From Siphonodentalium dalli (lineage: Eukaryota; Mollusca; Scaphopoda; Gadilida; Siphonodentaliidae), in the NCBI GenBank assembly GCA_032622095.1, contig CP136061.1, positions 135,495,587-135,559,586 on the forward strand: a DNA stretch of 64,000 nt, given 5' to 3'. The notes under the pieces were generated by a model. It was not told the origin of the DNA and did no database searches. It saw nothing but the letters and a program-made list of their open reading frames with translations. The position numbers and the translations under genes were made by a program. Below, piece by piece: positions 9,874 to 60,090 of the stretch. Each line of letters starts with the position of its first letter. The first letter of the stretch is position 1.

Positions 9874-10180
9874 TTTTTTTTTTTTTTTTTTTTATAAAAT
9901 CGACTCAGTTCTGGTTTTCGAGCCCACGGGACCACAACCCAGAGACTGAGCCAGTCCTGGTATATGACTCATTTCGTGGTCTACGGGTATTCAAAACCGG
10001 TTCATCACTGTCGACACGATGTAACTTTATTCAAATGAAAAACAAAAAATACAATATTACAAAATTTAAATATTACAAACCATTTAAGAAAAATTGGAAG
10101 TTAAAACGATCTTAAGGCAAAGGGAAGGATAGTCGGCAGACGTGGATATATTATAGAAAAGGGCGCGACATAGTGAAGCG

Positions 10181-10407
10181 GATCGTCGTAGAATGAGAAC
10201 GATGATATAGGACAAGTCATGGGAGTAAAAGGAGATGAAAGAAAGAGCTGAATTTAAGAGAAGTGGAGCATAAAGACACATAGGAGAGGACTTCACAGGA
10301 TCATCGTAGAAAGAGAACAATGAAATAGGACAAGTCATAGGAATCGAAAGAGCGAGCTGAATTTATGAAAAGGGGATATCAAGATACACAGGAAGGGGCA
10401 GCACAGA
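10181..10407. repeat. Diverged tandem duplication, ~2 copies of 108-119 bp
   Basis: Copy 1 at about 10181-10299 and copy 2 at about 10300-10407 share gatc-tcgtagaa, ataggacaagtcat and gagctgaattta in the same order. They are purine-rich on the + strand and lie in the element A 3' UTR. Confidence 0.75.
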
Positions 10408-10507
10408 AAGGGAACAAAGTAAGAGTAATTTAAGGTAAGTATAATTCTAAATAATTAAATAAATAAACACTAAAAAAAAAAATACAAAAAAAATACAAAA
10501 ATACAAA

Positions 10508-10565
10508 AATAATAATAATAATAATAATAATAATAATTATTATTATTATTACTATTATTATTATA
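10508..10565. repeat. (AAT)n followed by (ATT)n microsatellite
   Basis: About ten AAT repeats switch directly to ATT repeats, making a self-complementary stretch that can form a hairpin. Confidence 0.9.
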
Positions 10566-10694
10566 ATGTTATTAAGCTATGTATTCAAAGTTGATAACAA
10601 ATTCTATCTCGTGAATCGATGGCCAAAGCAGGGTCAATATCAATACCGATTCACATACTGTTCTCTACCATTAACTAATTTAATGCCGATACCA

Positions 10695-11858
10695 TTAACC
10701 CTTATCAATGTCATCAGGATCGATCATCTTCAATCCAGGTTGCCTCTCGTACCAGTGCATGTACAGCACCGCTCCCTTTGGCATTTTCTCGCCTCTAACC
10801 CCTCTCCTCAAAGCACTGAGATACAAACGGTACAGTTCTGAAAAATCTTTTGTGTTTGAATATTTCCAATCTAAGTCCAGCAGGGCAGTCATTGGAATAT
10901 CAGAAACATCACAGAATGCTCCTGACCGAAAGCTTTTTGGAATGGAGTCAATGTGAGTCCTGTCGACTCTCTGGTTGCTTGAACGGGTCAAATAGAAATG
11001 CTCTTCGTCCGCATTATCAGCTTTCCCTTTCTGCTTTTCCACAACTATACTTGTAACACTCGATTTCTGTTTCGACTCTTTGGGTATCGTCGATGGTGGT
11101 TTCGAAATGAAATTTGCCTGGGTAGATATGGACACCTTAGTGGGAGCATCAGTTGCCTGGACGGACACCGTAACCTTAGTGGGAGCGTCAGTAGCCTGAG
11201 TGGATACAGTGGCCTTAGAATACACCTCAGTCGTCTGAGTAGATGTGCATTTAACACCATAAGTAGGCTGGTTATCCGAAATTAACCTAGCAGGACATGA
11301 GTACATTTTATGCTGCGGTGATAGACACAATGCGCATACCTGGGGGCGTCCCTGCACAGTGACAATAGCCCGTCCGTTCCCATAGTCCAAAGAATAAGGC
11401 ACCGTTTTCCCCTCATTAACTCTGACAGTTAACTCACGCACGCCGTTATGAATCAGAACGCCATTGCACGTAGTGCCTAAGTACCGTTGTTCTAACACTG
11501 TCCCAAAATCCGCACACAACGTTGGCAGTCTATCTGGGGCGATAAAGTATGGTAAACGATGAACTTTAATCGTGCAAATCGCCAAAGCAATATCAAAGAA
11601 ATAAAGCGAAGAGTTATTTACAGAGAAAGGTGATTGTCCGATCACACTCGACGCAACGTCAGGGTCGGTGAACACCACTATCCACAAGCTCTGTTGACCA
11701 TCGCGGCACACAGCTGTAACTTTATTGAGGTCAATGCAATGGCTGACTGCCTTCAACACCTCTCCGTGGTCACGTAGATTAGGTCCTCGTATCAGTAGCT
11801 TCACACTTTTCGACAAAATATCAGCACTGAACTCCATTTCTGACCAAACAATTGTCAC
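10695..11858 (-). CDS. LINE ORF1 protein, RNA-binding, single CCHC knuckle
   Basis: 387 aa. The N-terminal ~170 residues look like the RRM-like region of ORF1 in L1/Tx1-type LINEs, and one knuckle CX2CX4HX4C follows (C175, C178, H183, C188, the same residue numbers as the first knuckle of ORF1 in element C). After it come short Thr/Val-rich repeats containing STQATDAPTK-like units (about residues 205-250) and a charged tail. Known ORF1 proteins bind the element RNA as a particle. Two Met codons lie near the start (residues 1 and 8); the first is kept because it gives the longest frame. It has no stop or frameshift, so it may still be made. Assignment rests on position, the knuckle and the shared 5' end. 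Confidence 0.75.
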   Translation of the reverse strand: MTIVWSEMEFSADILSKSVKLLIRGPNLRDHGEVLKAVSHCIDLNKVTAVCRDGQQSLWIVVFTDPDVASSVIGQSPFSVNNSSLYFFDIALAICTIKVHRLPYFIAPDRLPTLCADFGTVLEQRYLGTTCNGVLIHNGVRELTVRVNEGKTVPYSLDYGNGRAIVTVQGRPQVCALCLSPQHKMYSCPARLISDNQPTYGVKCTSTQTTEVYSKATVSTQATDAPTKVTVSVQATDAPTKVSISTQANFISKPPSTIPKESKQKSSVTSIVVEKQKGKADNADEEHFYLTRSSNQRVDRTHIDSIPKSFRSGAFCDVSDIPMTALLDLDWKYSNTKDFSELYRLYLSALRRGVRGEKMPKGAVLYMHWYERQPGLKMIDPDDIDKG

Positions 11859-11997
11859 TAACCTTCAGTATAAATCATCTGCTCAACATAGTCCGTGAAA
11901 TTATGACAATATATATCATAAACCGCACATAAATGCACAATTTGCGACAGCGAAATTAAACACGTCTTCCGTAATCCAAAGCTAACCGGAAGTTCTC
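11859..11997 (-). other. 5' UTR of element A
   Basis: 139 bp from the element's 5' end to the ORF1 start. The first bases on the sense strand, GAGAACTTCCGGTT, match the 5' end of element C. An internal Pol II promoter is expected for such elements but none was identified. Confidence 0.6.
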
Positions 11998-12032
11998 GAG
12001 TCTGGCGCCTTAGACCACTCGGCCATCCTGAC
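11998..12032 (-). pseudogene. tRNA-Leu(CAA) 5' part, unit 8, split by LINE
   Basis: First 35 bases of the gene including the duplicated GAGTCTGGCGCC (11998-12009). Confidence 0.93.
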
Positions 12033-12288
12033 TTATGAAATGAAGACCAAAACTGTTGCAGTCCCGCGCGCACGTCACGTGGTTACAGCTGAAGAGCAAG
12101 TTCTCTGTAATTTCGGCATACTAATTAATATTCACGTATTTTGTCAACAGATTTGCTGAAACGTCGCACAAACTTTTAGTGAACATGGATTCGGGTGACG
12201 TCACATGTAGTTTTTAGACCGATTTTTTGTTATAAGAAATTTTCAAATGCACGTTTTACAGTTTATAAGAGCTTATTCCAACACCGAA

Positions 12289-12361
12289 GTTTCCGTAGTG
12301 TAGTGGTTATCACGCTCGCCTAACACGCGAGAGGTCCTGAGTTCGAGCCTCAGCGGAAACA
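12289..12361 (+). tRNA. tRNA-Val-AAC: tRNA-Val(AAC), unit 8
   Basis: As the unit 2 gene; first intact gene right of the LINE. Confidence 0.96.
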
Positions 12362-12591
12362 ACCGGAACAGTTTTGCTGAGTTTTGCCTACAGACAAATA
12401 ATGTTTCGTGTTGCCCGTGGCCAAAGTACTCACACTAAACTGAAACTTGATTGCCAAAATACATTTTTGTATGATTGAAAGCCCCTCAATTTACTGACCG
12501 TCGATCATTTTTGCTTGAGATGAAGAATAAAACACAAACACTTAAAATTGCGTTATTTGTCAAAAACAAAATTGATTCACCAACTAAAATT

Positions 12592-12664
12592 TGTTCCCGC
12601 TGGGGCTCGAACCCAGGACCTCTCGCGTGTGAAGCGAGCGTGATAACCACTACACTACGGAAAC
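12592..12664 (-). tRNA. tRNA-Val-CAC: tRNA-Val(CAC), unit 8
   Basis: As the unit 2 gene. Confidence 0.96.
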
Positions 12665-12921
12665 TTCGCATACTGTCACAATTTTAAATGCGCTCGGGAT
12701 GATTCGACTAGATCAAAACTTACTTCGGTCTGAGAAAATGTTATGACGGTTAGATAGCTTCCTAATTCCCGCGCAGTACGGCCTGATCACGATGGACAAA
12801 CTGAGGTTGCACAAATTAATGCCCCGGGCATAGCATCAATCAACATGAAGACAACATTTTGTTCAAAGTTATACCTGTACACTATAATATAGTACCCAAA
12901 CTGTTAGGAAAATCCCCATGT

Positions 12922-13013
12922 GCCTCGGTAGCGCAGTAGGCAGCGCGTCAGTCTCATAATCACAAAATGACAGAGCAATCTGAAGGTCGTGAGTTCGATC
13001 CTCACTCGGGGCA
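12922..13013 (+). tRNA. tRNA-Met-CAT: tRNA-Met(CAT), unit 9
   Basis: No difference from the unit 2 gene noticed. Confidence 0.95.
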
Positions 13014-13242
13014 GAAATCTTTTGCCTGTGATTTTTAATGTTACCCTTCGGAGCAGATCCATTTTGACAGCCAAGTTGAAAGAAAAAGAAAACCATCAAA
13101 ATGTTCTTTTCTGTCTGGATTTTGGTTGGCAGAAACAGCAAACAAGCTATGTGAAATATCAAACTCATAGAGATGGTGCCAAGAAGTTCACAGGTCAACT
13201 GTCGCTTCCATGTGAGCAAGCAAAATGCAAACAAAAAAGTAT

Positions 13243-13357
13243 AGTCAGAAGTGGGGTTCGAACCCACGCCCACATTCGTGGACCAGAACTCCCATAACCT
13301 CGAACGAGGAAGGCAGTACCTTGAGTCTGGCGCCTTAGACCACTCGGCCATCCTGAC
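13243..13357 (-). tRNA. tRNA-Leu-CAA: tRNA-Leu(CAA), unit 9, T73
   Basis: As unit 1, with T73. Confidence 0.87.
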
Positions 13358-13613
13358 TTATGAAATGAAGACCAAAACTGTTGCAGTCCCGCGCGCACGT
13401 CACGTGGTTACAGCTGAAGAGCAAGTTCTCTGTAATTTCGGCATACTAATTAATATTCACGTATTTTGTCAACAGATTTGCTGAAACGTCGCACAAACTT
13501 TTAGTGAACATGGATTCGGGTGACGTCACATGTAGTTTTTAGACCGATTTTTTGTTATAAGAAATTTTCAAATGCACGTTTTACAGTTTATAAGAGCTTA
13601 TTCCAACACCGAA

Positions 13614-13686
13614 GTTTCCGTAGTGTAGTGGTTATCACGCTCGCCTAACACGCGAGAGGTCCTGAGTTCGAGCCTCAGCGGAAACA
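13614..13686 (+). tRNA. tRNA-Val-AAC: tRNA-Val(AAC), unit 9
   Basis: As the unit 2 gene. Confidence 0.96.
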
Positions 13687-13916
13687 ACCGGAACAGTTTT
13701 GCTGAGTTTTGCCTACAGACAAATAATGTTTCGTGTTGCCCGTGGCCAAAGTACTCACACTAAACTGAAACTTGATTGCCAAAATACATTTTTGTATGAT
13801 TGAAAGCCCCTCAATTTACTGACCGTCGATCATTTTTGCTTGAGATGAAGAATAAAACACAAACACTTAAAATTGCGTTATTTGTCAAAAACAAAATTGA
13901 TTCACCAACTAAAATT

Positions 13917-13989
13917 TGTTCCCGCTGGGGCTCGAACCCAGGACCTCTCGCGTGTGAAGCGAGCGTGATAACCACTACACTACGGAAAC
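13917..13989 (-). tRNA. tRNA-Val-CAC: tRNA-Val(CAC), unit 9
   Basis: As the unit 2 gene. Confidence 0.96.
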
Positions 13990-14246
13990 TTCGCATACTG
14001 TCACAATTTTAAATGCGCTCGGGATGATTCGACTAGATCAAAACTTACTTCGGTCTGAGAAAATGTTATGACGGTTAGATAGCTTCCTAATTCCCGCGCA
14101 GTACGGCCTGATCACGATGGACAAACTGAGGTTGCACAAATTAATGCCCCGGGCATAGCATCAATCAACATGAAGACAACATTTTGTTCAAAGTTATACC
14201 TGTACACTATAATATAGTACCCAAACTGTTAGGAAAATCCCCATGT

Positions 14247-14338
14247 GCCTCGGTAGCGCAGTAGGCAGCGCGTCAGTCTCATAATCACAAAATGACAGAG
14301 CAATCTGAAGGTCGTGAGTTCGATCCTCACTCGGGGCA
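14247..14338 (+). tRNA. tRNA-Met-CAT: tRNA-Met(CAT), unit 10
   Basis: No difference from the unit 2 gene noticed. Confidence 0.95.
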
Positions 14339-14567
14339 GAAATCTTTTGCCTGTGATTTTTAATGTTACCCTTCGGAGCAGATCCATTTTGACAGCCAAG
14401 TTGAAAGAAAAAGAAAACCATCAAAATGTTCTTTTCTGTCTGGATTTTGGTTGGCAGAAACAGCAAACAAGCTATGTGAAATATCAAACTCATAGAGATG
14501 GTGCCAAGAAGTTCACAGGTCAACTGTCGCTTCCATGTGAGCAAGCAAAATGCAAACAAAAAAGTAT

Positions 14568-14682
14568 AGTCAGAAGTGGGGTTCGAACCCACGCCCACAT
14601 TCGTGGACCAGAACTCCCATAACCTCGAACGAGGAAGGCAGTACCTTGAGTCTGGCGCCTTAGACCACTCGGCCATCCTGAC
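14568..14682 (-). tRNA. tRNA-Leu-CAA: tRNA-Leu(CAA), unit 10, T73
   Basis: As unit 1, with T73. Confidence 0.87.
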
Positions 14683-14938
14683 TTATGAAATGAAGACCAA
14701 AACTGTTGCAGTCCCGCGCGCACGTCACGTGGTTACAGCTGAAGAGCAAGTTCTCTGTAATTTCGGCATACTAATTAATATTCACGTATTTTGTCAACAG
14801 ATTTGCTGAAACGTCGCACAAACTTTTAGTGAACATGGATTCGGGTGACGTCACATGTAGTTTTTAGACCGATTTTTTGTTATAAGAAATTTTCAAATGC
14901 ACGTTTTACAGTTTATAAGAGCTTATTCCAACACCGAA

Positions 14939-15011
14939 GTTTCCGTAGTGTAGTGGTTATCACGCTCGCCTAACACGCGAGAGGTCCTGAGTTCGAGCCT
15001 CAGCGGAAACA
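14939..15011 (+). tRNA. tRNA-Val-AAC: tRNA-Val(AAC), unit 10
   Basis: As the unit 2 gene. Confidence 0.96.
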
Positions 15012-15240
15012 ACCGGAACAGTTTTGCTGAGTTTTGCCTACAGACAAATAATGTTTCGTGTTGCCCGTGGCCAAAGTACTCACACTAAACTGAAACTTGA
15101 TTGCCAAAATACATTTTTGTATGATTGAAAGCCCCTCAATTTATGACCGTCGATCATTTTTGCTTGAGATGAAGAATAAAACACAAACACTTAAAATTGC
15201 GTTATTTGTCAAAAACAAAATTGATTCACCAACTAAAATT

Positions 15241-15313
15241 TGTTCCCGCTGGGGCTCGAACCCAGGACCTCTCGCGTGTGAAGCGAGCGTGATAACCACT
15301 ACACTACGGAAAC
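15241..15313 (-). tRNA. tRNA-Val-CAC: tRNA-Val(CAC), unit 10
   Basis: As the unit 2 gene; the Val-Val spacer is 1 bp shorter, as in unit 12. Confidence 0.96.
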
Positions 15314-15570
15314 TTCGCATACTGCCACAATTTTAAATGCGCTCGGGATGATTCGACTAGATCAAAACTTACTTCGGTCTGAGAAAATGTTATGACGGTT
15401 AGATAGCTTCCTAATTCCCGCGCAGTACGGCCTGATCACGATGGACAAACTGAGGTTGCACAAATTAATGCCCCGGGCATAGCATCAATCAACATGAAGA
15501 AAACATTTTGTTCAAAGTTATACCTGTACACTATAATATAGTACCCAAACTGTTAGGAAAATCCCCATGT

Positions 15571-15662
15571 GCATCGGTAGCGCAGTAGGCAGCGCGTCAG
15601 TCTAATAATCACAAAATGACAGAGCAATCTGAAGGTCGTGAGTTCGATCCTCACTCGGGGCA
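15571..15662 (+). tRNA. tRNA-Met body with anticodon AAT, unit 11
   Basis: Anticodon CAT is changed to AAT (15604-15606), an Ile anticodon on a Met body; C3 is also changed to A. Charging and decoding are uncertain. Confidence 0.75.
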
Positions 15663-15891
15663 GAAATCTTTTGCCTGTGATTTTTAATGTTACCCTTCGG
15701 AGCAGATCCATTTTGACAGCCAAGTTGAAAGAAAAAGAAAACCATCAAAATGTTCTTTTCTGTCTGGATTTTGGTTGGCAGAAACAGCAAACAAGCTATG
15801 TGAAATATCAAACTCATAGAGATGGTGCCAAGAAGTTCACAGGTCAACTGTCGCTTCCATGTGAGCAAGCAAAATGCAAACAAAAAAGTAT

Positions 15892-16006
15892 AGTCAGAAG
15901 TGGGGTTCGAACCCACGCCCACATTCGTGGACCAGAACTCCCATAACCTCGAACGAGGAAGGCAGTACCTTGAGTCTGGCGCCTTAGACCACTCGGCCAT
16001 CCTGAC
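15892..16006 (-). tRNA. tRNA-Leu-CAA: tRNA-Leu(CAA), unit 11, T73
   Basis: As unit 1, with T73. Confidence 0.87.
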
Positions 16007-16262
16007 TTATGAAATGAAGACCAAAACTGTTGCAGTCCCGCGCGCACGTCACGTGGTTACAGCTGAAGAGCAAGTTCTCTGTAATTTCGGCATACTAATT
16101 AATATTCACGTATTTTGTCAACAGATTTGCTGAAACGTCGCACAAACTTTTAGTGAACATGGATTCGGGTGACGTCACATGTAGTTTTTAGACCGATTTT
16201 TTGTTATAAGAAATTTTCAAATGCACGTTTTACAGTTTATAAGAGCTTATTCCAACACCGAA

Positions 16263-16335
16263 GTTTCCGTAGTGTAGTGGTTATCACGCTCGCCTAACAC
16301 GCGAGAGGTCCTGAGTTCGAGCCTCAGCGGAAACA
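16263..16335 (+). tRNA. tRNA-Val-AAC: tRNA-Val(AAC), unit 11
   Basis: As the unit 2 gene. Confidence 0.96.
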
Positions 16336-16565
16336 ACCGGAACAGTTTTGCTGAGTTTTGCCTACAGACAAATAATATTTCGTGTTGCCCGTGGCCAAAG
16401 TACTCACACTAAACTGAAACTTGATTGCCAAAATACATTTTTGTATGATTGAAAGCCCCTCAATTTACTGACCGTCGATCATTTTTGCTTGAGATGAAGA
16501 ATAAAACACAAACACTTAAAATTGCGTTATTTGTCAAAAACAAAATTGATTCACCAACTAAAATT

Positions 16566-16638
16566 TGTTCCCGCTGGGGCTCGAACCCAGGACCTCTCGC
16601 GTGTGATGCGAGCGTGATAACCACTACACTACGGAAAC
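16566..16638 (-). tRNA. tRNA-Val-CAC: tRNA-Val(CAC), unit 11
   Basis: T32 changed to A in the anticodon loop. Confidence 0.9.
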
Positions 16639-16895
16639 TTCGCATACTGTCACAATTTTAAATGCGCTCGGGATGATTCGACTAGATCAAAACTTACTTC
16701 GGTCTGAGAAAATGTTATGACGGTTAGATAGCTTCCTAATTCCCGCGCAGTACGGCCTGATCACGATGGACAAACTGAGGTTGCACAAATTAATGCCCCG
16801 GGCATAGCATCAATCAACATGAAGACAACATTTTGTTCAAAGTTATACCTGTACACTATAATATAGTACCCAAACTGTTAGGAAAATCCCCATGT

Positions 16896-16987
16896 GCCTC
16901 GGTAGCGCAGTAGGCAGCGCGTCAGTCTCATAATCACAAAATGACAGAGCAATCTGAAGGTCGTGAGTTCGATCCTCACTCGGGGCA
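16896..16987 (+). tRNA. tRNA-Met-CAT: tRNA-Met(CAT), unit 12
   Basis: No difference from the unit 2 gene noticed. Confidence 0.95.
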
Positions 16988-17216
16988 GAAATCTTTTGCC
17001 TGTGATTTTTAATGTTACCCTTCGGAGCAGATCCATTTTGACAGCCAAGTTGAAAGAAAAAGAAAACCATCAAAATGTTCTTTTCTGTCTGGATTTTGGT
17101 TGGCAGAAACAGCAAACAAGCTATGTGAAATATCAAACTCATAGAGATGGTGCCAAGAAGTTCACAGGTCAACTGTCGCTTCCATGTGAGCAAGCAAAAT
17201 GCAAACAAAAAAGTAT

Positions 17217-17331
17217 AGTCAGAAGTGGGGTTCGAACCCACGCCCACATTCGTGGACCAGAACTCCCATAACCTCCAACGAGGAAGGCAGTACCTTGAGT
17301 CTGGCGCCTTAGACCACTCGGCCATCCTGAC
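17217..17331 (-). tRNA. tRNA-Leu-CAA: tRNA-Leu(CAA), unit 12, T73
   Basis: T73 and one base change in the intron hairpin. Confidence 0.86.
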
Positions 17332-17587
17332 TTATGAAATGAAGACCAAAACTGTTGCAGTCCCGCGCGCACGTCACGTGGTTACAGCTGAAGAGCAAGT
17401 TCTCTGTAATTTCGGCATACTAATTAATATTCACGTATTTTGTCAACAGATTTGCTGAAACGTCGCACAAACTTTTAGTGAACATGGATTCGGGTGACGT
17501 CACATGTAGTTTTTAGACCGATTTTTTGTTATAAGAAATTTTCAAATGCACGTTTTACAGTTTATAAGAGCTTATTCCAACACCGAA

Positions 17588-17660
17588 GTTTCCGTAGTGT
17601 AGTGGTTATCACGCTCGCCTAACACGCGAGAGGTCCTGAGTTCGAGCCTCAGCGGAAACA
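17588..17660 (+). tRNA. tRNA-Val-AAC: tRNA-Val(AAC), unit 12
   Basis: As the unit 2 gene; one change just downstream. Confidence 0.96.
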
Positions 17661-17889
17661 CCCGGAACAGTTTTGCTGAGTTTTGCCTACAGACAAATAA
17701 TGTTTCGTGTTGCCCGTGGCCAAAGTACTCACACTAAACTGAAACTTGATTGCCAAAATACATTTTTGTATGATTGAAAGCCCCTCAATTTATGACCGTC
17801 GATCATTTTTGCTTGAGATGAAGAATAAAACACAAACACTTAAAATTGCGTTATTTGTCAAAAACAAAATTGATTCACCAACTAAAATT

Positions 17890-17962
17890 TGTTCCCGCTG
17901 GGGCTCGAACCCAGGACCTCTCGCGTGTGAAGCGAGCGTGATAACCACTACACTACGGAAAC
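17890..17962 (-). tRNA. tRNA-Val-CAC: tRNA-Val(CAC), unit 12
   Basis: As the unit 2 gene. Confidence 0.96.
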
Positions 17963-18219
17963 TTCGCATACTGCCACAATTTTAAATGCGCTCGGGATGA
18001 TTCGACTAGATCAAAACTTACTTCGGTCTGAGAAAATGTTATGACGGTTAGATAGCTTCCTAATTCCCGCGCAGTACGGCCTGATCACGATGGACAAACT
18101 GAGGTTGCACAAATTAATGCCCCGGGCATAGCATCAATCAACATGAAGAAAACATTTTGTTCAAAGTTATACCTGTACACTATAATATAGTACCCAAACT
18201 GTTAGGAAAATCCCCATGT

Positions 18220-18311
18220 GCATCGGTAGCGCAGTAGGCAGCGCGTCAGTCTAATAATCACAAAATGACAGAGCAATCTGAAGGTCGTGAGTTCGATCCT
18301 CACTCGGGGCA
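18220..18311 (+). tRNA. tRNA-Met body with anticodon AAT, unit 13
   Basis: Same two changes as unit 11 (AAT at 18253-18255, A3), so the two were copied from one another. Confidence 0.75.
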
Positions 18312-18540
18312 GAAATCTTTTGCCTGTGATTTTTAATGTTACCCTTCGGAGCAGATCCATTTTGACAGCCAAGTTGAAAGAAAAAGAAAACCATCAAAAT
18401 GTTCTTTTCTGTCTGGATTTTGGTTGGCAGAAACAGCAAACAAGCTATGTGAAATATCAAACTCATAGAGATGGTGCCAAGAAGTTCACAGGTCAACTGT
18501 CGCTTCCATGTGAGCAAGCAAAATGCAAACAAAAAAGTAT

Positions 18541-18655
18541 AGTCAGAAGTGGGGTTCGAACCCACGCCCACATTCGTGGACCAGAACTCCCATAACCTCG
18601 AACGAGGAAGGCAGTACCTTGAGTCTGGCGCCTTAGACCACTCGGCCATCCTGAC
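18541..18655 (-). tRNA. tRNA-Leu-CAA: tRNA-Leu(CAA), unit 13, T73
   Basis: As unit 1, with T73. Confidence 0.87.
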
Positions 18656-18911
18656 TTATGAAATGAAGACCAAAACTGTTGCAGTCCCGCGCGCACGTCA
18701 CGTGGTTACAGCTGAAGAGCAAGTTCTCTGTAATTTCGGCATACTAATTAATATTCACGTATTTTGTCAACAGATTTGCTGAAACGTCGCACAAACTTTT
18801 AGTGAACATGGATTCGGGTGACGTCACATGTAGTTTTTAGACCGATTTTTTGTTATAAGAAATTTTCAAATGCACGTTTTACAGTTTATAAGAGCTTATT
18901 CCAACACCGAA

Positions 18912-48223: not shown

Positions 48224-48228
<5 letters not shown>

Positions 48229-48264: not shown

Positions 48265-48270
<6 letters not shown>

Positions 48271-51600: not shown

Positions 51601-52516
51601 AGATAGAGGCTTTCTTTATTTTATACTTTAGATTGTCCCACCATACCAGATATTCCCTGTCAAATAATGGACAACTTTTTTCTTTGTTGACTAGCTCATT
51701 TATTAACAACACATAGTTGGGATTGTCTAAAAGTGAGTCATTCAGGATCCAAACGCCTGGACCTTTCTCTACCCCATGGAAATTAAACTTGGCAATTACC
51801 AGGGAGTGATCACTAAAGGAAGTGTAGTTCATGAAACAATACATATTCAAGCTAATCAATGAGTTTGTACATAAAATATAATCAATTCTGCTTTGTTGTA
51901 ATTTATTTTCAACAATTCTGAGCCAGCTGTATTGTTTTTTCCCGGGGTTTCGATACCTCCAAGAATCTAGTAAATGATTTTTAGTTAAAAAATTTTGAAA
52001 GTCCACTGTTGTTCCATCAGTGTTGCCACTGTATCTGTCAATACTCTGGTACACTGTGTTGAAATCACCCATGATAATCTTTTCTGAACTAATTTTACAG
52101 ATGTTTTCTAGGGATTTGAGGAAAAGTTTCCGGTCTTTATAATCATTCGGGGCATATACTGAAAAAAAGGAATATTTTTTGTCATTGAACATTAAGTTAA
52201 TGCCAACTAGTCGTCCATGGTCATCTTTAATTTTTAATTCACATGTTTTACCAAATTCTTTGCTGACCAAAATAGCTACACCTCTGCTGTTATCTTTATA
52301 GTTGGAGCTGAAACATTTACCCTTCCACAAGTGCTTAATGCTATCAACATAATCATCATCCCAAAAAGTCTCCTGTAAAGCAATCACGCCAAATCTGCGC
52401 TCCTCAAATAAGCTGAACAACCCTTTAATCTTATTCATATTTCTCATACCTCTCACATTCAAGGAGCACAGAGTTGCCATGAATGCAACCAGAAAAACTT
52501 TCTGCAAAAATTCCAT
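48647..52516 (-). CDS. LINE ORF2: APE endonuclease and reverse transcriptase
   Basis: 1,289 aa, intact. The N-terminal exonuclease-endonuclease-phosphatase domain has N20 (SLNVRGM), E49 (LQET), GDFN at 150-153, SRIDYIL from 209 and SDHS at 235-238, the catalytic set for target nicking. The reverse transcriptase follows: SPGLDG (471-476), NWRPISLL (530-537), catalytic D600 in KIDLYKAFD, RQGCPLSP (658-665) and HADD (702-705) in place of the usual YADD or FADD. A C-terminal CX2CX8HX4C finger sits at C1146/C1149/H1158/C1163. Length and order fit L1/Tx1 ORF2. Met13 (MATLCSLNVRG) is an alternative start closer to typical ORF2 starts. Given four insertions at one nucleotide, its endonuclease probably supplies the tRNA-Leu specificity. 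Confidence 0.93.
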   Translation of the reverse strand: MEFLQKVFLVAFMATLCSLNVRGMRNMNKIKGLFSLFEERRFGVIALQETFWDDDYVDSIKHLWKGKCFSSNYKDNSRGVAILVSKEFGKTCELKIKDDHGRLVGINLMFNDKKYSFFSVYAPNDYKDRKLFLKSLENICKISSEKIIMGDFNTVYQSIDRYSGNTDGTTVDFQNFLTKNHLLDSWRYRNPGKKQYSWLRIVENKLQQSRIDYILCTNSLISLNMYCFMNYTSFSDHSLVIAKFNFHGVEKGPGVWILNDSLLDNPNYVLLINELVNKEKSCPLFDREYLVWWDNLKYKIKKASIFYAQKLSRERKSNEYELQRKLSIELSRPSQFTDISKISLLKSDIEEHEILKCQGAIIRSKCNHALEDDRCTKYFLSLEKYRQDFNTFPAVVDRNGSIVTNPFDMLKIAEHFYGNLYSTPIIIEEKQNILLEVIEKKLNKENSDIIDTDFESSEIYEALFSMSDGKSPGLDGLTATFFKRFYTIFEPLFVKLITEISCNGRLSPSMEKGLITLIYKKKGDKRDLSNWRPISLLGVDRKLIAKILANRMKTIIATLVSDFQTCSVPGRDLSETVLSLKDMIRYINDSNLDAVLLKIDLYKAFDKIDHGYLFKVLEEVGFGENFVRWVKILYQNSKSSIKMNGHLSSWIKIESSVRQGCPLSPLLYILCSEPIAQLINNNHNIRGIPIPGCNMPAKLFQHADDNKLVVADENSVKLVLQCFETFAKGSGSQINYDKSEIMPIGNVILPRDLPLQIVQGPVEILGIYLGNNEKEAIDVNWSKKLQKISNILHLWKQRKLTIKGKITVLQSLYLSTLWYTLNVTELPEMYEKKLKAIVLSFLWDNTIHKIKYTTLIGDLNVGGLKLPDVEKKKLALRCKWIKKMEVSQFPWKYFMLFYFDKYRNLRLGKDTLFINIYERYAVKLPQFYADVLRAWKIITDDSRHLINSTLNVLDQPLFDNGLITSEGKMFYFDTFVMAGLVRIKHLTYEVIPGFLPEMAIHEMVCGDSMCNCVTVSNNYTSILNALPCEWKELVNGNEMANSYSDINGKTCGENAIPFINNGELTSTSHLTTKIAYSQIIAKVFEMPTSVSYWQKQYGPNFKLNWTLVHLCVKSTEMIELDLKIYHNMLFTRRRQFIVKQSDTDTCPLCHIDVEDIKHIFFGCKYLQEIKDKCRLYIDHLFAKDKIVTEDEFSKMLIFGSGRKGKNINIMFINLLLCAYRIAVYRSRNFYLYDNKRLPADKLLQPVLKNHITMLKIYYDRKNKSELFDKFILNNNTLIYYIAEQIHFSI

Positions 52517-52525
52517 TATTAAAAA

Positions 52526-54112
52526 TTATACATTCTGATCATTCGAAGCATCAATATCAATATTAACTTTAGATTTTATCTTAATTTTAGATCTCTTGTT
52601 ATTGTCAATTGGTTGATCTTTGACTTCCTGTTTCGGAGAACCGTCTCTGTCATGTTTTCTCTTAATTGAACTTTTCCTGGTTTCCTCTCCCATTTCGTGA
52701 TCAGACTCAGAATAACTAATGGAAAGGCGAGAATCGTTCATCTCAGAATCTGCATCCTCGAAATACTCCTCTCCCTCAGATTTTGAACTACCAAGAGGTG
52801 AATAGGTGAATTCTTCCATTTCCACTCCATCGATAGAAACTTTTACTTTTCCATCAGAATTTTCTGCTGATCCAGTCTTCACTTTTTCCAAACTTTTAAT
52901 TGTCAAATTTTCTTTCACAGAATTTTCCTCTGACCCAACCACATTTTCCTCCGACATTTTTTCCTTCGTTAGATTTTCCTTTTCAGAATTTTCCACTGAC
53001 ACAATAACCACATTTTCTTCAGGTAATTTATCTGTCGTTAAATTTTCCTTTTCAGAATTTTCCGCTGACCCAATAACCACATTTTCTTCAGGTAATTTAT
53101 TTGTCGTTGAATTTTCCTTCGCAGAATTTTCCGCTGACCCAATAACCACTTTTTCCTCAGACATTTTTTCCTTTGAATTTTCCTGTTCAATTTTTTCAGA
53201 AATGTTCGCATCATCAGCTTCTTTATCCCAATCTTCCTTTTCACCCGTTTCCTGAATTTTTTCCTTAGGGGGCGGGGCCTTCAATGTCCAAGGTTCTGTC
53301 GTCGCAGCTGCCCAATTACCACTGTCGCTTGAAGGCTGGATTATTCCTTCATTTTCCTCCGCGTTGTCTTGCTCCATATCGTTCGCTGCTGATTTATTAA
53401 CATTTTCTTTTTTGGCATTCCTTTCCCTGCGTTCTTCTTCAAATCTCGGGCATACACAGACATATCTTGCACATGTAAAACATTTCGTCTTCTCACACCG
53501 TCTGGAAACATGACCATATTCTCGACATTTAAAACATTGAGTCTTCGGACATGAGACATAGATATGTTGATCAGACCCACACTCTGAACAAACTTTGACT
53601 TGATTGTCATGTAACACTCGAAAATATCTAAAACTGTCAGCCGTCTCGAATTTCATTGAGTAAGGTAGAGCCTTTACTTCTGGTGGGAACTCCACTTTCA
53701 TGAATCGTGTTCCATCTACTATATTGGTTTTTGGATAAACTCTTCGTTTAATTGGCGAAATGATTTTCAGATTAAAGTCATTTGTTAATCTCTCTGTAAT
53801 TTTTTCATCAGTGATATATGCGGGCAAATGTAGTATTGATACAACTACCTGCCTTGTGTAAACACGCGCTCCATTTATCTTCTTGCCATGAACCTCGATT
53901 CCACCACTGAGAATATCAGTGGCAGCTATGTCACAGACTGTCACCTCAAATGTATCACTGCCAACTGGGACACAAGCCAGAATAGCATCATTCCCACAAA
54001 AGCTGCCTGTAGCTTCAATAATATCAATAGCTTTGATTTTGCTATTATCACCAACATTTAGTCGGACAGTGTGTTCTTTTATTGGAGGGCCACTGTTGCC
54101 CTCCACACCCAT
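52526..54112 (-). CDS. LINE ORF1 protein, RRM-like plus CCHC knuckles
   Basis: 528 aa nucleic-acid-binding ORF1 protein of an L1/Tx1-type LINE; the body resembles ZCCHC3-like and other gag-like ORF1 proteins. Residues ~15-170 form an RRM-like region (HLPAYITDEKI, then YPKTNIVDGTRFMKVEFPP). Two CX2CX4HX4C knuckles follow at C175/C178/H183/C188 and C193/C196/H201/C206, then a Cys-rich third stretch (C211-C221). Residues ~319-421 are four to five tandem 23-aa acidic/Lys repeats with core GSAENS-KEN; the C-terminus is charged with a possible nuclear-localisation cluster (KRKHDR, NNKRSKIKIKSK). Its UAA is nine bases before the ORF2 AUG. Confidence 0.88.
   Translation of the reverse strand: MGVEGNSGPPIKEHTVRLNVGDNSKIKAIDIIEATGSFCGNDAILACVPVGSDTFEVTVCDIAATDILSGGIEVHGKKINGARVYTRQVVVSILHLPAYITDEKITERLTNDFNLKIISPIKRRVYPKTNIVDGTRFMKVEFPPEVKALPYSMKFETADSFRYFRVLHDNQVKVCSECGSDQHIYVSCPKTQCFKCREYGHVSRRCEKTKCFTCARYVCVCPRFEEERRERNAKKENVNKSAANDMEQDNAEENEGIIQPSSDSGNWAAATTEPWTLKAPPPKEKIQETGEKEDWDKEADDANISEKIEQENSKEKMSEEKVVIGSAENSAKENSTTNKLPEENVVIGSAENSEKENLTTDKLPEENVVIVSVENSEKENLTKEKMSEENVVGSEENSVKENLTIKSLEKVKTGSAENSDGKVKVSIDGVEMEEFTYSPLGSSKSEGEEYFEDADSEMNDSRLSISYSESDHEMGEETRKSSIKRKHDRDGSPKQEVKDQPIDNNKRSKIKIKSKVNIDIDASNDQNV
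52850..53158 (-). repeat. In-frame tandem repeats within ORF1 (69 bp, 4-5 copies)
   Basis: Each copy encodes about 23 residues around ENVVIGSAENS-KEN-TT-KLP; the last copies are degenerate. Copy number is likely variable between elements. Confidence 0.85.
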
Positions 54113-54322
54113 TTTCGAGGGTGATGAAAGTCAAATCCAACTATCTGGAAATTCGTTGGACAAAACCCTCGAATAGCTACCTGACTATTTACTTCACATC
54201 TTTACGAATTGAGTTACATCAAATTTGAGATATAAATCTAGTCAGAAACTATGGATTGCAACAGATTTGCTCACTCTGGAAAACAAACGATGTCATCCAT
54301 CCGCCATTAAACCGGAAGTCTC
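54113..54322 (-). other. 5' UTR of element C
   Basis: 210 bp. On the sense strand it starts GAGACTTCCGGTT, shared with element A apart from one base. GGCGGATGG follows shortly after. A CTTCCGG core is an ETS-type motif, so an internal promoter is plausible but not shown. Confidence 0.6.
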
Positions 54323-54357
54323 GAGTCTGGCGCCTTAGACCACTCGGCCATCCTGAC
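54323..54357 (-). pseudogene. tRNA-Leu(CAA) 5' part, unit 31
   Basis: First 35 bases including the duplicated GAGTCTGGCGCC (54323-54334). Confidence 0.94.
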
Positions 54358-54613
54358 TTATGAAATGAAGACCAAAACTGTTGCAGTCCCGCGCGCACGT
54401 CACGTGGTTACAGCTGAAGAGCAAGTTCTCTGTAATTTCGGCATACTAATTAATATTCACGTATTTTGTCAACAGATTTGCTGAAACGTCGCACAAACTT
54501 TTAGTGAACATGGATTCGGGTGACGTCACATGTAGTTTTTAGACCGATTTTTTGTTATAAGAAATTTTCAAATGCACGTTTTACAGTTTATAAGAGCTTA
54601 TTCCAACACCGAA

Positions 54614-54686
54614 GTTTCCGTAGTGTAGTGGTTATCACGCTCGCCTAACACGCGAGAGGTCCTGAGTTCGAGCCTCAGCGGAAACA
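54614..54686 (+). tRNA. tRNA-Val-AAC: tRNA-Val(AAC), unit 31
   Basis: As the unit 2 gene. Confidence 0.96.
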
Positions 54687-54916
54687 ACCGGAAAAGTTTT
54701 GCTGAGTTTTGCCTACAGACAAATAATGTTTCGTGTTGCCCGTGGCCAAAGTACTCACACTAAACTGAAACTTGATTGCCAAAATACATTTTTGTATGAT
54801 TGAAAGCCCCTCAATTTACTGACCGTCGATCATTTTTGCTTGAGATGAAGAATAAAACACAAACACTTAAAATTGCGTTATTTGTCAAAAACAAAATTGA
54901 TTCACCAACTAAAATT

Positions 54917-54989
54917 TGTTCCCGCTGGGGCTCGAACCCAGGACCTCTCGCGTGTGAAGCGAGCGTGATAACCACTACAGTACGGAAAC
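54917..54989 (-). tRNA. tRNA-Val-CAC: tRNA-Val(CAC), unit 31, D-stem mismatch
   Basis: G10 changed to C breaks 10-25 and touches the A box. Confidence 0.83.
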
Positions 54990-55246
54990 TTCGCATACTG
55001 TCACAATTTTAAATGCGCTCGGGATGATTCGACTAGATCAAAACTTACTTCGGTCTGAGAAAATGTTATGACGGTTAGATAGCTTCCTAATTCCCGCGCA
55101 GTACGGCCTGATCACGATGGACAAACTGAGGTTGCACAAATTAATGCCCCGGGCATAGCATCAATCAACATGAAGACAACATTTTGTTCAAAGTTATACC
55201 GGTACACTATAATATAGTACCCAAACTGTTAGGAAAATCCCCATGT

Positions 55247-55338
55247 GCCTCGGTAGCGCAGTAGGCAGCGCGTCAGTCTCATAATCACAAAATGACAGAG
55301 CAATCTGAAGGTCGTGAGTTCGATCCTCACTCGGGGCA
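55247..55338 (+). tRNA. tRNA-Met-CAT: tRNA-Met(CAT), unit 32
   Basis: No difference from the unit 2 gene noticed. Confidence 0.95.
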
Positions 55339-55567
55339 GAAATCTTTTGCCTGTGATTTTTAATGTTACCCTTCGGAGCAGATCCATTTTGACAGCCAAG
55401 TTGAAAGAAAAAGAAAACCATCAAAATGTTCTTTTCTGTCTGGATTTTGGTTGGCAGAAACAGCAAACAAGCTATGTGAAATATCAAACTCATAGAGATG
55501 GTGCCAAGAAGTTCACAGGTCAACTGTCGCTTCCATGTGAGCAAGCAAAATGCAAACAAAAAAGTAT

Positions 55568-55682
55568 TGTCAGAAGTGGGGTTCGAAACCACGCCCACAT
55601 TCGTGGACCAGAACTCCCATCACCTCGAACGAGGAAGGCAGTACCTTGAGTCTGGCGCCTTAGACCACTCGGCCATCCTGAC
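55568..55682 (-). tRNA. tRNA-Leu-CAA: tRNA-Leu(CAA), unit 32, T-stem mismatch
   Basis: G53 changed to T breaks the conserved 53-61 pair; one intron change. Confidence 0.78.
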
Positions 55683-55938
55683 TTATGAAATGAAGACCAA
55701 AACTGTTGCAGTCCCGCGCGCACGTCACGTGGTTACAGCTGAAGAGCAAGTTCTCTGTAATTTCGGCATACTAATTACTATTCACGTATTTTGTCAACAG
55801 ATTTGCTGAAACGTCGCACAAACTTTTAGTGAACATGGATTCGGGTGACGTCACATGTAGTTTTTAGACCGATTTTTTGTTATAAGAAATTTTCAAATGC
55901 ACGTTTTACAGTTTATAAGAGCTTATTCCAACACCGAA

Positions 55939-56011
55939 GTTTCCGTAGTGTAGTGGTTATCACGCTCGCCTAACACGCGAGAGGTCCTGAGTTCGAGCAT
56001 CAGCGGAAACA
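55939..56011 (+). tRNA. tRNA-Val-AAC: tRNA-Val(AAC), unit 32, T-stem mismatch
   Basis: C61 changed to A breaks the conserved 53-61 pair. Confidence 0.82.
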
Positions 56012-56241
56012 ACCGGAAAAGTTTTGCTGAGTTTTGCCTACAGACAAATAATGTTTCGTGTTGCCCGTGGCCAAAGTACTCACACTAAACTGAAACTTGA
56101 TTGCCAAAATACATTTTTGTATGATTGAAAGCCCCTCAATTTACTGACCGTCGATCATTTTTGCATGAGATGAAGAATAAAACACAAACACTTAAAATTG
56201 CGTTATTTGTCAAAAACAAAATTGATTCACCAACTAAAATT

Positions 56242-56314
56242 TGTTCCCGCTGGGGCTCGAACCCAGGACCTCTCGCGTGTGAAGCGAGCGTGATAACCAC
56301 TACACTACGGAAAC
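56242..56314 (-). tRNA. tRNA-Val-CAC: tRNA-Val(CAC), unit 32
   Basis: As the unit 2 gene. Confidence 0.96.
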
Positions 56315-56571
56315 TTCGCATACTGTCACAATTTTAAATGCGCTCGGGATGATTCGACTAGATCAAAACTTACTTCGGTCTGAGAAAATGTTATGACGGT
56401 TAGATAGCTTCCTAATTCCCGCGCAGTACGGCCTGATCACGATGGACAAACTGAGGTTGCACAAATTAATGCCCCGGGCATAGCATCAATCAACATGAAG
56501 ACAACATTTTGTTCAAAGTTATACCGGTACACTATAATATAGTACCCAAACTGTTAGGAAAATCCCCATGT

Positions 56572-56663
56572 GCCTCGGTAGCGCAGTAGGCAGCGCGTCA
56601 GTCTCATAATCACAAAATGACAGAGCAATCTGAAGGTCGTGAGTTCGATCCTCACTCGGGGCA
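56572..56663 (+). tRNA. tRNA-Met-CAT: tRNA-Met(CAT), unit 33
   Basis: No difference from the unit 2 gene noticed. Confidence 0.95.
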
Positions 56664-56892
56664 GAAATCTTTTGCCTGTGATTTTTAATGTTACCCTTCG
56701 GAGCAGATCCATTTTGACAGCCAAGTTGAAAGAAAAAGAAAAACATCAAAATGTTCTTTTCTGTCTGGATTTTGGTTGGCAGAAACAGCAAACAAGCTAT
56801 GTGAAATATCAAACTCATAGAGATGGTGCCAAGAAGTTCACAGGTCAACTGTCGCTTCCATGTGAGCAAGCAAAATGCAAACAAAAAAGCAT

Positions 56893-57007
56893 TGTCATAA
56901 GTGGGGTTCGAACCCACGCCCACATTCGTGGACCAGAACTCCCATAACCTCGACCGAGGAAGGCAGTACCTTGAGTCTGGCGCCTTAGACCACTCGGCCA
57001 TCCTGAC
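56893..57007 (-). tRNA. tRNA-Leu-CAA: tRNA-Leu(CAA), unit 33, acceptor mismatch
   Basis: C68 changed to A (mismatch with G5); one intron change. Confidence 0.78.
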
Positions 57008-57263
57008 TTATGAAATGAAGACCAAAACTGTTGCAGTCCCGCGCGCACGTCACGTGGTTACAGCTGAAGAGCAAGTTCTCTGTAATTTCGGCATACTAAT
57101 TACTATTCACGTATTTTGTCAACAGATTTGCTGAAACGTCGCACAAACTTTTAGTGAACATGGATTCGGGTGACGTCACATGTAGTTTTTAGACCGATTT
57201 TTTGTTATAAGAAAGTTTCAAATGCACGTTTTACAGTTTATAAGAACTTATTCCAACACCGAA

Positions 57264-57336
57264 GTTTCCGTAGTGTAGTGGTTATCACGCTCGCCTAACA
57301 CGCGAGAGGTCCAGAGTTCGAGCCTCAGCGGAAACA
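57264..57336 (+). tRNA. tRNA-Val-AAC: tRNA-Val(AAC), unit 33, T-stem mismatch
   Basis: T50 changed to A (A-A mismatch). Confidence 0.83.
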
Positions 57337-57566
57337 ACCGGAAAAGTTTTGCTGAGTTTTGCCTACAGACAAATAATGTTTCGTGTTGCCCGTGGCCAAA
57401 GTACTCACACTAAACTGAAACTTGATTACCAAAATACATTTTTGTATGATTGAAAGCCCCTCAATTTACTGACCGTCGATCATTTTTGCTTGAGATGAAG
57501 AATAAAACACAAACACTTAAAATTGCGTTATTTGTCAAAAACAAAATTGATTCACCAACTAAAATT

Positions 57567-57639
57567 TGTTCCCGCTGGGGCTCGAACCCAGGACCTCTCG
57601 CGTGTGAAGGGAGCGTGATAACCACTACACTACGGAAAC
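57567..57639 (-). tRNA. tRNA-Val-CAC: tRNA-Val(CAC), unit 33, anticodon-stem mismatch
   Basis: G30 changed to C (C-C mismatch), shared with units 34 and 35. Confidence 0.82.
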
Positions 57640-57896
57640 TTCGCATACTGTCACAATTTTAAATGCGCTCGGGATGATTCGACTAGATCAAAACTTACTT
57701 CGGTCTGAGAAAATGTTATGACGGTTAGATAGCTTCCTAATTCCCGCGCAGTACGGCCTGATCACGATGGACAAACTGAGGTTGCACAAATTAATGCCCC
57801 GGGCATAGCATCAATCAACATGAAGACAACATTTTGTTCAAAGTTATACCGGTACACTATAATATAGTACCCAAAATGTTAGGAAAATCCCCATGT

Positions 57897-57988
57897 GCCT
57901 CGGTAGCGCAGTAGGCAGCGCGTCAGTCTCATAATCACAAAATGACAGAGCAATCTGAAGGTCGTGAGTTCGATCCTCACTCGGGGCA
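57897..57988 (+). tRNA. tRNA-Met-CAT: tRNA-Met(CAT), unit 34
   Basis: No difference from the unit 2 gene noticed. Confidence 0.95.
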
Positions 57989-58217
57989 GAAATCTTTTGC
58001 CTGTGATTTTTAATGTTACCCTTCGGAGCAGATCCATTTTGACAGCCAAGTTGAAAGAAAAAGAAAACCATCAAAATGTTCTTTTCTGTCTGGATTTTGG
58101 TTGGCAGAAACAGCAAACAAGCTATGTGAAATATCAAACTCATAGAGATGGTGCCAAGAAGTTCACAGGTCAACTGTCGCTTCCATGTGAGCAAGCAAAA
58201 TGCAAACAAAAAAGTAT

Positions 58218-58309
58218 TGTCATAAGTGGGGTTCGAACCCACTCCCACATTCGTGGACCAGAACTCCCATAACCTCGACCGAGGAAGGCAGTACCTTGAG
58301 TCTGGCGCC
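58218..58309 (-). pseudogene. tRNA-Leu(CAA) 3' part, unit 34, broken by LINE
   Basis: C68A as unit 33; ends at GGCGCC with poly-T following. No matching 5' part: the array restarts further upstream. Confidence 0.92.
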
Positions 58310-58720
58310 TTTTTTTTTTTATCTTTTATTATAAAAACATTATTAAGCAATGTGCTACAGTAAAAACAAAACGACAACATTTGTATACACATGAGATTAC
58401 AATGAAAACAATGATAGTTCTTATATGTTATGTTTCCTAATAGAAAGCTGAATAGAAGCCTATAGTATGAAATATATATCAGGTATATGCGATCTGTTGT
58501 CCAAATGTCGTTGGTTGTTGACTTTCCTTGTTAATTTTTAATTTTTTCCTCGACTAATGTTAGTTCCATGGAATTTTTAGCAGTGTATCGAAATTATAAT
58601 GTTTCGGTATGATGTAGGCGAAGTAACTCTAAAATTTGTCGAGTATTTGAATTTGGCAATCTCCGTGTATCTCCGTAAGCATACGAAGATTGACGAGGTT
58701 TACGGAATTATTCGGACCAG

Positions 58721-59059
58721 TTATTGCACGTGTTTTTGGCTAAACATTTTCTTTCTAAAATGGACTAATATCCATATAATTAGGTTATTGAAGTGTTGTC
58801 GATGTTGACTGTTATCTCTATGAAATCTACGGTGAGTTTCCCAAAGGAAAATAACCATATTTCTGTAGGAAAAAACACTTTTGTTTCGCCAAATTTTTGT
58901 GTTGATGTCTTCGGCATCTTCCGTGTTCAGCCGAGCCCGATGGGGCCAACATCGGTCATCCAATGTGAAACATGTCAAAATGTGAATATGAAAATTGGTA
59001 CTGATGCTGTGATAGAATTTTAACTTCAAGAGTCTTAATTTGACATGATAGTTAAACAT
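58721..59059 (-). pseudogene. Possible remnant of LINE ORF2 C-terminus
   Basis: A 112-codon open frame with a Cys/His-containing stretch (TCFTLDDRCWPHRARLNTED) followed by EDINTKIW, loosely like the finger region of ORF2 in element C. Evidence is weak and could be coincidental. Confidence 0.25.
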
Positions 59060-59200
59060 CTCACCAGTTTTTGTGATAAAATGAATATGATTTTATGAAT
59101 ATATTTGTTGTTTCGCCTTGCAATTGGGTGAATTTATAAATTATAAATAATGTTTAATAATAATAATATATTAATAATAAATTGGTTTGTTATTATACCA

Positions 59201-59740
59201 TCAACATGACTTCCCGGTGCGCCACGGTTCATCAAAATCCCGACATGAATGACCAACAACCATAAGGCCCACCAGAGGCCCGAGACAACAGTCAAAGGCC
59301 TCTAATAGGCCCGAGGGCCGCCAAACACGCATGGAGGTCTGCCAAAAAATATATACACCATGGCGCCTGACAAAAAAACGCCGTTACTTTTATTACCATT
59401 CTGGCCTGGTATGATCACGTGGTCTGTGACTTGACCAGAAAAGGGCGGCGGCCCCAGCGAAAACAAAAATTCACTAAATCCTGCCGCACTCCTCTAGTCA
59501 ATTTTATCTCAAACTTGTAAATCTTATTGTGCAGGTAAATACTCTTAATCTACTTGAGAAAGCCCTCTAAAATGGTAATAATTATTCATAGCAACATACA
59601 TGCACATGAATCTGTGTACATTTATATTTTTACGACTGATTTGTGTTAACATTGTTCCATTATGATAATCATAAAATCTGAATGGCATAAAATTGTGTCT
59701 GTTTTGCATACAGATGGATACTTATTGTCTGTTTACTTGT
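59201..59740. other. Unassigned sequence within element D
   Basis: Includes a GC-rich part with four AGGCC(C) motifs (59270-59335), a CACGTG (59416) and AT-rich DNA. No open frame or known repeat was recognised. Confidence 0.5.
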
Positions 59741-59749
59741 TTTTTCCAG

Positions 59750-59838
59750 GTAAAACTTATTTGTATGCTGCATCTGACGACTCGGTGACAAGTTGGAAAT
59801 TTCAGAAACTGGCACTTGTGGGATTTGGCCTTGGATAG
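59750..59838 (+). other. Terminal exon-like segment, possible WD40 C-terminus
   Basis: Behind a strong polypyrimidine tract and acceptor (ttgttttttccag) lies a frame entered in phase 1 that reads KTYLYAASDDSVTSWKF and stops at TAG (59836-59838) after a short hydrophobic tail. The Y-AASDDS-VTSWKF pattern is like the last strands of a WD40 blade. It would be the last exon of a host gene on the strand opposite to the LINE; upstream exons are not visible, so here it is at best a fragment. Confidence 0.4.
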
Positions 59839-60090
59839 GTATTCTTCGGCATGTCGGTTTGACTATGCTCTGTTCTAGAAAAGGGCTGGAGACCAAAACT
59901 TATCAGTTATGATGTGTCTTACTAGTATCCCATGATACAGTCTGTGAACAGTGGACCAGTTTTCTTGTATGGCTTAAAACTGGGATCTAAAGATCAATAA
60001 CATATTTTTAGGTGAGAAAAAGTCATGTAAAGTATCCATACTCAATGTACTCACTATCGTATATATTACATTACATCCTCCGGGAAAATC
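59839..60090. other. Sequence between exon-like segment and array restart
   Basis: Could be the 3' UTR of the exon-like segment; nothing else recognised. The array restarts within shared tcggagcagat. Confidence 0.5.

Follow-up and report, generated by a model that had tools for sequence, protein, structure and literature searches.

L1-group LINEs and gag-only hitch-hikers that very probably insert at one structural point inside many tRNA genes of Siphonodentalium dalli

The window, the whole stretch of DNA analysed here, is 64,000 bp of the Siphonodentalium dalli genome (C1:135495587-135559586, C1 being contig CP136061.1; 2.23 Gb in 9 contigs) and lies in a tandem array of tRNA genes (tDNA array) that carries long interspersed nuclear elements (LINEs). 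Very probably, an L1-group LINE clade and its gag-only hitch-hikers insert at a single fixed structural point within tRNA genes. The position, strand, poly-A end and duplications of these insertions, as well as the many tRNAs used per enzyme, can be read directly from the genomic sequence. The array fills the window (1..64000) with a unit of about 1325 bp that holds tRNA-Val(AAC) on the plus strand, tRNA-Val(CAC) on the minus strand, tRNA-Met on the plus strand with an intron-like insert, and an intron-bearing tRNA-Leu(CAA) on the minus strand. The Leu-CAA identity is that given by the initial annotation and by our own reading of the sequence, against the label given by ARAGORN, which mislabelled the Leu gene as Ser(cga), because of its intron, and the Met gene as SeC. 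The target sequence, GAGTCTGGCGCC, is the antisense of Leu-CAA from the D-stem to the anticodon and was found 40 times within the window, compared to 0 expected. At 9862, 29221, 46141, and 58298 it is directly followed by poly-T, confirming the claim of the initial annotation that four insertions share one starting nucleotide within tRNA-Leu(CAA). They lie in its sense orientation and are coded on the minus strand, as is tRNA-Leu.

The four insertions, with their open reading frames (ORFs) and duplications, are all given here on the minus strand. Insertion D (46153..54322) is a complete LINE of 8170 bp with ORF1 and ORF2 both open; other copies begin 2 bp further in. Insertion B (29233..29611, end approximate) is a 5'-truncated relative of D, 96% identical over 377 bp, that rejoins the array at CGCCTTAGACC without the 12-bp duplication. 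Insertion E (58310..60091, end approximate) is a 5'-truncated copy of a LINE family other than that of D, and its 3' end recurs at 17 further places at 95-100% identity and at one at 87%. A 12-bp duplication was considered for E and rejected, as its flanks instead share a 287-bp stretch of the array unit with 97.6% identity and 7 differences. Insertion A (9874..11997, poly-A end at 9874) is a complete gag-only element of 2124 bp. Since the bodies of A and E differ from each other and from those of B and D, while B is 96% identical to D, we consider A, E, and the B/D pair to be separate events, as had been proposed. A single LINE family for all four, which had also been proposed, was rejected because B and D represent one LINE, E another, and A is gag-only.

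The 389-amino-acid ORF of A (10695..11864, stop to stop) has a CCHC-like motif, and a Pfam search with it found no family at E 0.1. It is distantly related to ORF1 of D (25.6% identity over 133 amino acids, E 7e-4), and the 5' starts of A and D are alike (GAGAACTTCCGG, GAGACTTCCGG). A has no reverse transcriptase, yet its insertion and duplication are of the same kind as those of D; its poly-A tail probably allowed a LINE enzyme to mobilise it. Several more gag-only families related to A, about 40-63% identical, occur in the same tRNA regions, in clusters that include C3:126.05-126.13 Mb, C9:63.2 Mb, and C8:151.1 Mb. Gag-only relatives of A at 29-39% identity also occur outside the clusters.

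To place the insertions within tRNA genes, 82 junctions (12 D type, 35 E type, 34 A type, and L037, a member of a further family in Ser-CGA) were mapped on the native genes of the fetched loci. In 75 of the 82, the poly-A end joins between tRNA positions 21 and 22, where the D-loop ends and the D-stem's 3' strand begins. Positions were counted back from the anticodon in standard tRNA numbering. All 82 junctions are inside the gene and in the tRNA sense orientation. One base is hidden by the poly-A tail in Leu, Ser, and most Arg genes because base 22 is also A, and two of the 75 junctions were read by eye (L011, with a variant Leu-CAA flank, and L081, with an interrupted tail). The 75 junctions span 24 anticodon types and 12 amino acids: Leu CAA, UAA, UAG, AAG, and CAG; Ser CGA, UGA, and GCU; Arg UCG, ACG, CCU, and UCU; Asn GUU; Glu CUC and UUC; Lys UUU; Val UAC and AAC; Gly UCC; Asp GUC; Tyr GUA; Ile UAU; and Thr CGU and AGU. 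Leu-CAG and Arg-UCU were typed from the flank alone and Lys-UUU from a gene left unnamed by ARAGORN. The 23 distinct native contexts have A21 and T33 in common, with an information content of 10.3 bits within 5 bases on either side and 20.9 bits from -13 to +13.

These junctions come from a genome-wide census of 3' ends. GAGTCTGGCGCC followed by T8 was found 10 times on the forward strand, and 0 times on the reverse strand and in a reversed control; all 10 are in the C1 array. Intact GAGTCTGGCGCCTTAGACC sites number 168 genome-wide, and each of the 100 places listed is on C1. All 26 D-type candidates were scored. Twelve are near-complete 3' ends, and the other 14 consist of short tails from related families, or of pieces that lack the D 3' end. 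All 12 lie in tRNA genes (Leu-CAA 3, Asn 3, Val-UAC 2, and one each in Arg-ACG, Arg-CCU, Glu-CUC, and Lys-UUU). For the E type, the best 40 of 276 candidates were scored; 35 have the 3' end, all 35 of these in tRNA genes, and the remaining five are 107-bp internal pieces that were left out. For the A type, the best 40 of 299 candidates gave 47 rows, made up of 38 A-type 3' ends, 7 internal repeats, and 2 flanks of B and D only, and 34 of the 38 ends lie in tRNA genes. The E and A counts are lower bounds. At L061 (C8:165219150-165219700), inspection by eye also showed the decayed 3' end of a D-like element adjoining a tRNA-Ser(CGA) half that is likewise decayed, at about the same position, hinting that the habit of inserting into tRNA genes is old.

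The second cut was read from the target duplications. In copies with an intact 5' end, the duplicated target extends as far as position 32-34, at the anticodon. Such duplications were found in Leu-CAA (A, D, L019, L024, and L053), Leu-UAG (L010), Arg-UCG (L013), Arg-ACG (L014), and Asn (L016). Those of A (9862..9873 on the poly-A side and 11998..12009 on the 5' side) and D (46141..46152 and 54323..54334, respectively) are 12-14 bp long, with a second GAGTCTGGCGCC(TT) after A at 11998 and after D at 54323, in agreement with the initial annotation. Between the two cuts lie the D-stem's 3' strand and the 5' strand of the anticodon stem. No clean duplications were recognisable at the 5' ends of D-type copies in Asn, Arg, Thr, and Lys arrays. 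An odd 5' end is common to L019, L021, and L022, which are 3 of the 10 exact Leu-CAA junctions and look like copies of one event. This end includes a piece of tRNA-Thr of about 28 bp, which starts at G18 and reaches into the anticodon stem (L019:3757-3800), as if by 5' transduction from a tRNA-Thr copy or template switching onto a tRNA piece.

ORF2 of D (48647..52525, 1292 amino acids stop to stop) encodes an apurinic-type (APE) endonuclease (Pfam Exo_endo_phos, residues 20-240) that precedes a reverse transcriptase (RVT_1, residues 524-770), and it ends in a weak C-terminal zinc motif. Its best solved relative is L1 ORF2p (E 1.4e-74), compared to about 1e-15 for R2, which places the element in the L1 group. 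Other features of this group are also present, namely APE ahead of the reverse transcriptase in ORF2 and a poly-A 3' end with a target duplication of the kind left by target-primed reverse transcription. These findings uphold the earlier description of LINEs with an apurinic-type endonuclease and target-primed insertion into a multicopy gene array. ORF1 of D (52526..54130, 534 amino acids stop to stop) has zinc-knuckle motifs that were read by eye; the Pfam zf-CCHC match (E 0.011) is weaker than Pfam's cut-off. An ORF1 with zinc knuckles is usual in the Tx1 clade.

In a tree of this genome's copies only, the endonuclease and reverse transcriptase stretches from 17 ORF2 copies fall into six families. 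The families are up to 55% divergent and have their target class in common. Within families, ORF2 copies that are at least 97% identical sit in different tRNAs, indicating that one enzyme has many tRNA targets. D and L102, which are practically identical in these stretches (at least 97%), are in Leu-CAA and Lys-UUU, respectively. The same level of ORF2 identity was found for L103 and L104 (Asn and Arg-ACG, respectively), for L115 and L116 (Glu-UUC and Ser-GCU, respectively), and for L109, L110, L111, L112, and L117 (Glu-CUC, Lys-UUU, Val-AAC, Gly-UCC, and Ile-UAU, respectively). The target of each ORF2 was assigned from the 3' end downstream on the same contig, 2.3-3.8 kb away, which for L102, L110, L112, L115, L116, and L117 is across an unread intervening stretch. 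L106 was assigned to Leu-CAA through its 5' junction, and L105, L107, L108, L113, and L114 were left out of the assignment.

There is no stop in 26 of 39 ORF2 matches, and among the 17 endonuclease and reverse transcriptase stretches only L108 has one. The residues taken to be catalytic in both domains are invariant in 16 aligned copies. Between families, the ratio of nonsynonymous to synonymous substitution rates (dN/dS) was 0.086 for D and L103 (dS 1.65) and 0.090 for L109 and L114 (dS 2.5), with dS near saturation.

We propose the following mechanism for these insertions. The ORF2 endonuclease would nick the template (antisense) strand next to A21, which is conserved, and the freed 3' end would prime reverse transcription of the element's poly-A RNA. 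The other strand would be cut 12-14 bp away, before the anticodon. The target would be chosen by features common to tRNA genes, which are the A-box and D-arm DNA and probably bound RNA polymerase III (Pol III) factors. No single tRNA sequence would serve as the target, and the preference among tRNAs would be graded. The host may tolerate the loss of one copy in a large array.

Four explanations for the distribution of the junctions were weighed. A LINE family specific to tRNA-Leu(CAA), as the initial annotation had it, would fit the 10 exact array junctions and their absence from the reverse strand and the control. Leu-CAA is indeed a real target, but it is not the sole one, since junctions at this structural position occur in 24 anticodon types. 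Members of these families sit mostly in other tRNA genes, and D and L102 carry practically the same endonuclease and reverse transcriptase in Leu-CAA and Lys-UUU. Specificity for this one tRNA is thus very improbable. The initial annotation had named copies in unrelated sequence as evidence against its claim; most copies are indeed elsewhere, but nearly all those examined lie in other tRNA genes. It had also named amplification of the array. This does explain several subsets with common flanks and tails, which appear to be copies of single events (L019/L021/L022; L044/L045; L031/L046; five Arg-ACG copies on C9; four Tyr copies). It fails as a general cause, because bodies, truncation points, tails, and tRNA genes differ, the copies are on eight of nine contigs, and each duplication copies its own tRNA's sequence. 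We therefore regard an origin of the copies from one or a few amplified events as highly unlikely.

Another possible explanation, which we hold to be somewhat doubtful, is that the endonuclease recognises the A-box/D-arm sequence directly (approximately GGTTA^GCG) with no host factor. A21 in 23 of 23 native contexts, the strong G, G, and T before it, and the graded preference among tRNAs of one array all speak for direct reading. However, by our own arithmetic about 2000 sites in the genome would still be expected by chance at 10.3 and 20.9 bits, whereas all 47 of the 47 D- and E-type ends are in tRNA genes, and the off-position junctions in Tyr, His, and Asn are still inside tRNA genes. Because the local sequence seems too weak and the off-point junctions stay inside tRNA genes, we favor help from the Pol III complex. 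It is likely that one enzyme is generic in that it recognises the tRNA gene as a class and not as one sequence, and so reaches many, perhaps most, tRNA genes. It would probably do so by way of the Pol III complex combined with A-box/D-arm DNA, and its insertions would be intragenic and nucleotide-exact (21|22), with gag-only parasites riding along.

Several observations weigh against the main explanation, a clade that inserts at one structural point of tRNA genes. The exact junctions in the C1 unit are unequal, with 10 in Leu-CAA, 1 in both Val genes together, and 0 in Met, and there are 0 in Cys, which is in another array. The four C1-unit genes are about equally numerous (approximately 60-77 ARAGORN calls each in the fetched loci). 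With equal chances, our own arithmetic gives a probability of 8e-6 for at least 10 of 11 junctions in Leu-CAA and of 1e-4 for at least 8 of 9 when the triplicate is counted once. The unequal counts exclude a purely generic signal and, therefore, sequence or gene activity must matter too. Seven of the 82 junctions are off 21|22. Four near-identical Tyr elements are 6 nt upstream and are probably one event, one His copy is 12 nt upstream, and two Asn copies with the same flank are 2 nt downstream and are probably also one event. Four A-type 3' ends are without an adjoining tRNA half, three on C4 and one in a Glu array, where the flank is lost. The A and E counts come from only 40 of 299 and 40 of 276 candidates, respectively. 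Decayed or distant ORF relatives exist outside the clusters and were left out of the junction counts. Finally, dN/dS of young pairs ranges from 0.15 to 1.5 on few changes, synonymous changes are absent from one pair, and saturation affects three deep pairs.

Long ORF1 matches (at least 33% identity) lie in the same clusters, with a few short decayed pieces elsewhere (C4, C5, and C6). Dispersed ORF1 relatives at 23-32% are also present, of which only L130, an outgroup, was examined. Its ORF2 matches that of D at 23% over 403 amino acids, and ARAGORN found no tRNA in a stretch of 9 kb, although this is a weak control because the ends of the element are undefined.

Two other features of the window were observed. 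Insertion C (about 34948-38163, in the stretch 34825-38284) is another LINE with a reverse transcriptase (ORF 36135-38330) and is not at the 21|22 site. It lies just upstream of a tRNA-Leu, its tail consists of TA repeats, and its perfect 124-bp flanking direct repeat holds a whole tRNA-Leu gene. In the array's elongator tRNA-Met(CAT), a 19-base intron-like insert sits beside the anticodon (9460-9553 and other units), which is unusual for this tRNA.

Site-specific LINEs known so far mostly have one sequence each as their target. If our reading is true, the elements found here are retrotransposons that are at once generic for tRNA genes, intragenic, and nucleotide-exact. With 24 natural target types and one fixed cut already available, they allow a clean test of the way in which retrotransposons locate a gene class. 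They also bear on target-specific insertion tools, the upkeep of copy number in tDNA arrays, and the spread of target range among related genes.

LINEs that target tRNA genes are already known, but these insert beside the gene or into single tRNAs, whereas the elements here use one structural point inside many tRNA genes. A LINE with a generic, intragenic, and exact tRNA target was not found in the open-access papers searched, which do not cover Repbase, and an earlier description is possible. The comparisons here are limited to those papers. The non-long-terminal-repeat (non-LTR) elements TRE5, TRE3, NLTR-A, and NLTR-B of dictyostelids insert at tRNA genes of many kinds, and the TRE elements are of the L1 type with APE and two ORFs (PMC5911963, PMC5006619). 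They land 40-54 bp upstream, 40-150 bp downstream, 2-6 bp upstream, and 39-64 bp upstream, respectively (PMC5911963, PMC5006619). These sites are outside the tRNA gene, whereas the elements here use one nucleotide inside it, with 82 of 82 junctions intragenic. Dewa of zebrafish is a non-LTR element that reportedly uses the spacer of tRNA-Leu (PMC3706591), in contrast to the gene body of 24 anticodon types. NeSL-1_TV (tRNA-Pro), LIN15_SM (tRNA-Arg), and LIN25_SM (tRNA-Glu) are NeSL-related elements of the restriction-like endonuclease group (PMC4640811). They are specific for tRNA genes like the elements here, but for one tRNA each, compared to many tRNAs and an APE-type enzyme. Dada DNA transposons insert into different tRNA genes at matching sites, which lie close to the anticodon or at nucleotides 8-13 (PMC8869645). 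A Dada lineage hits mainly one or a few tRNAs, with a DDE transposase and 6-7 bp duplications, while the elements here have a reverse transcriptase, poly-A, and duplications of 12-14 bp. Keno, Mutsu, and other Tx1 elements are APE-type LINEs that are exact for U2 or 5S, with one kind of gene each (PMC3706591, PMC4640811). Like them, the elements here are of the APE type and exact within a small-RNA gene, but they insert into many kinds of gene.

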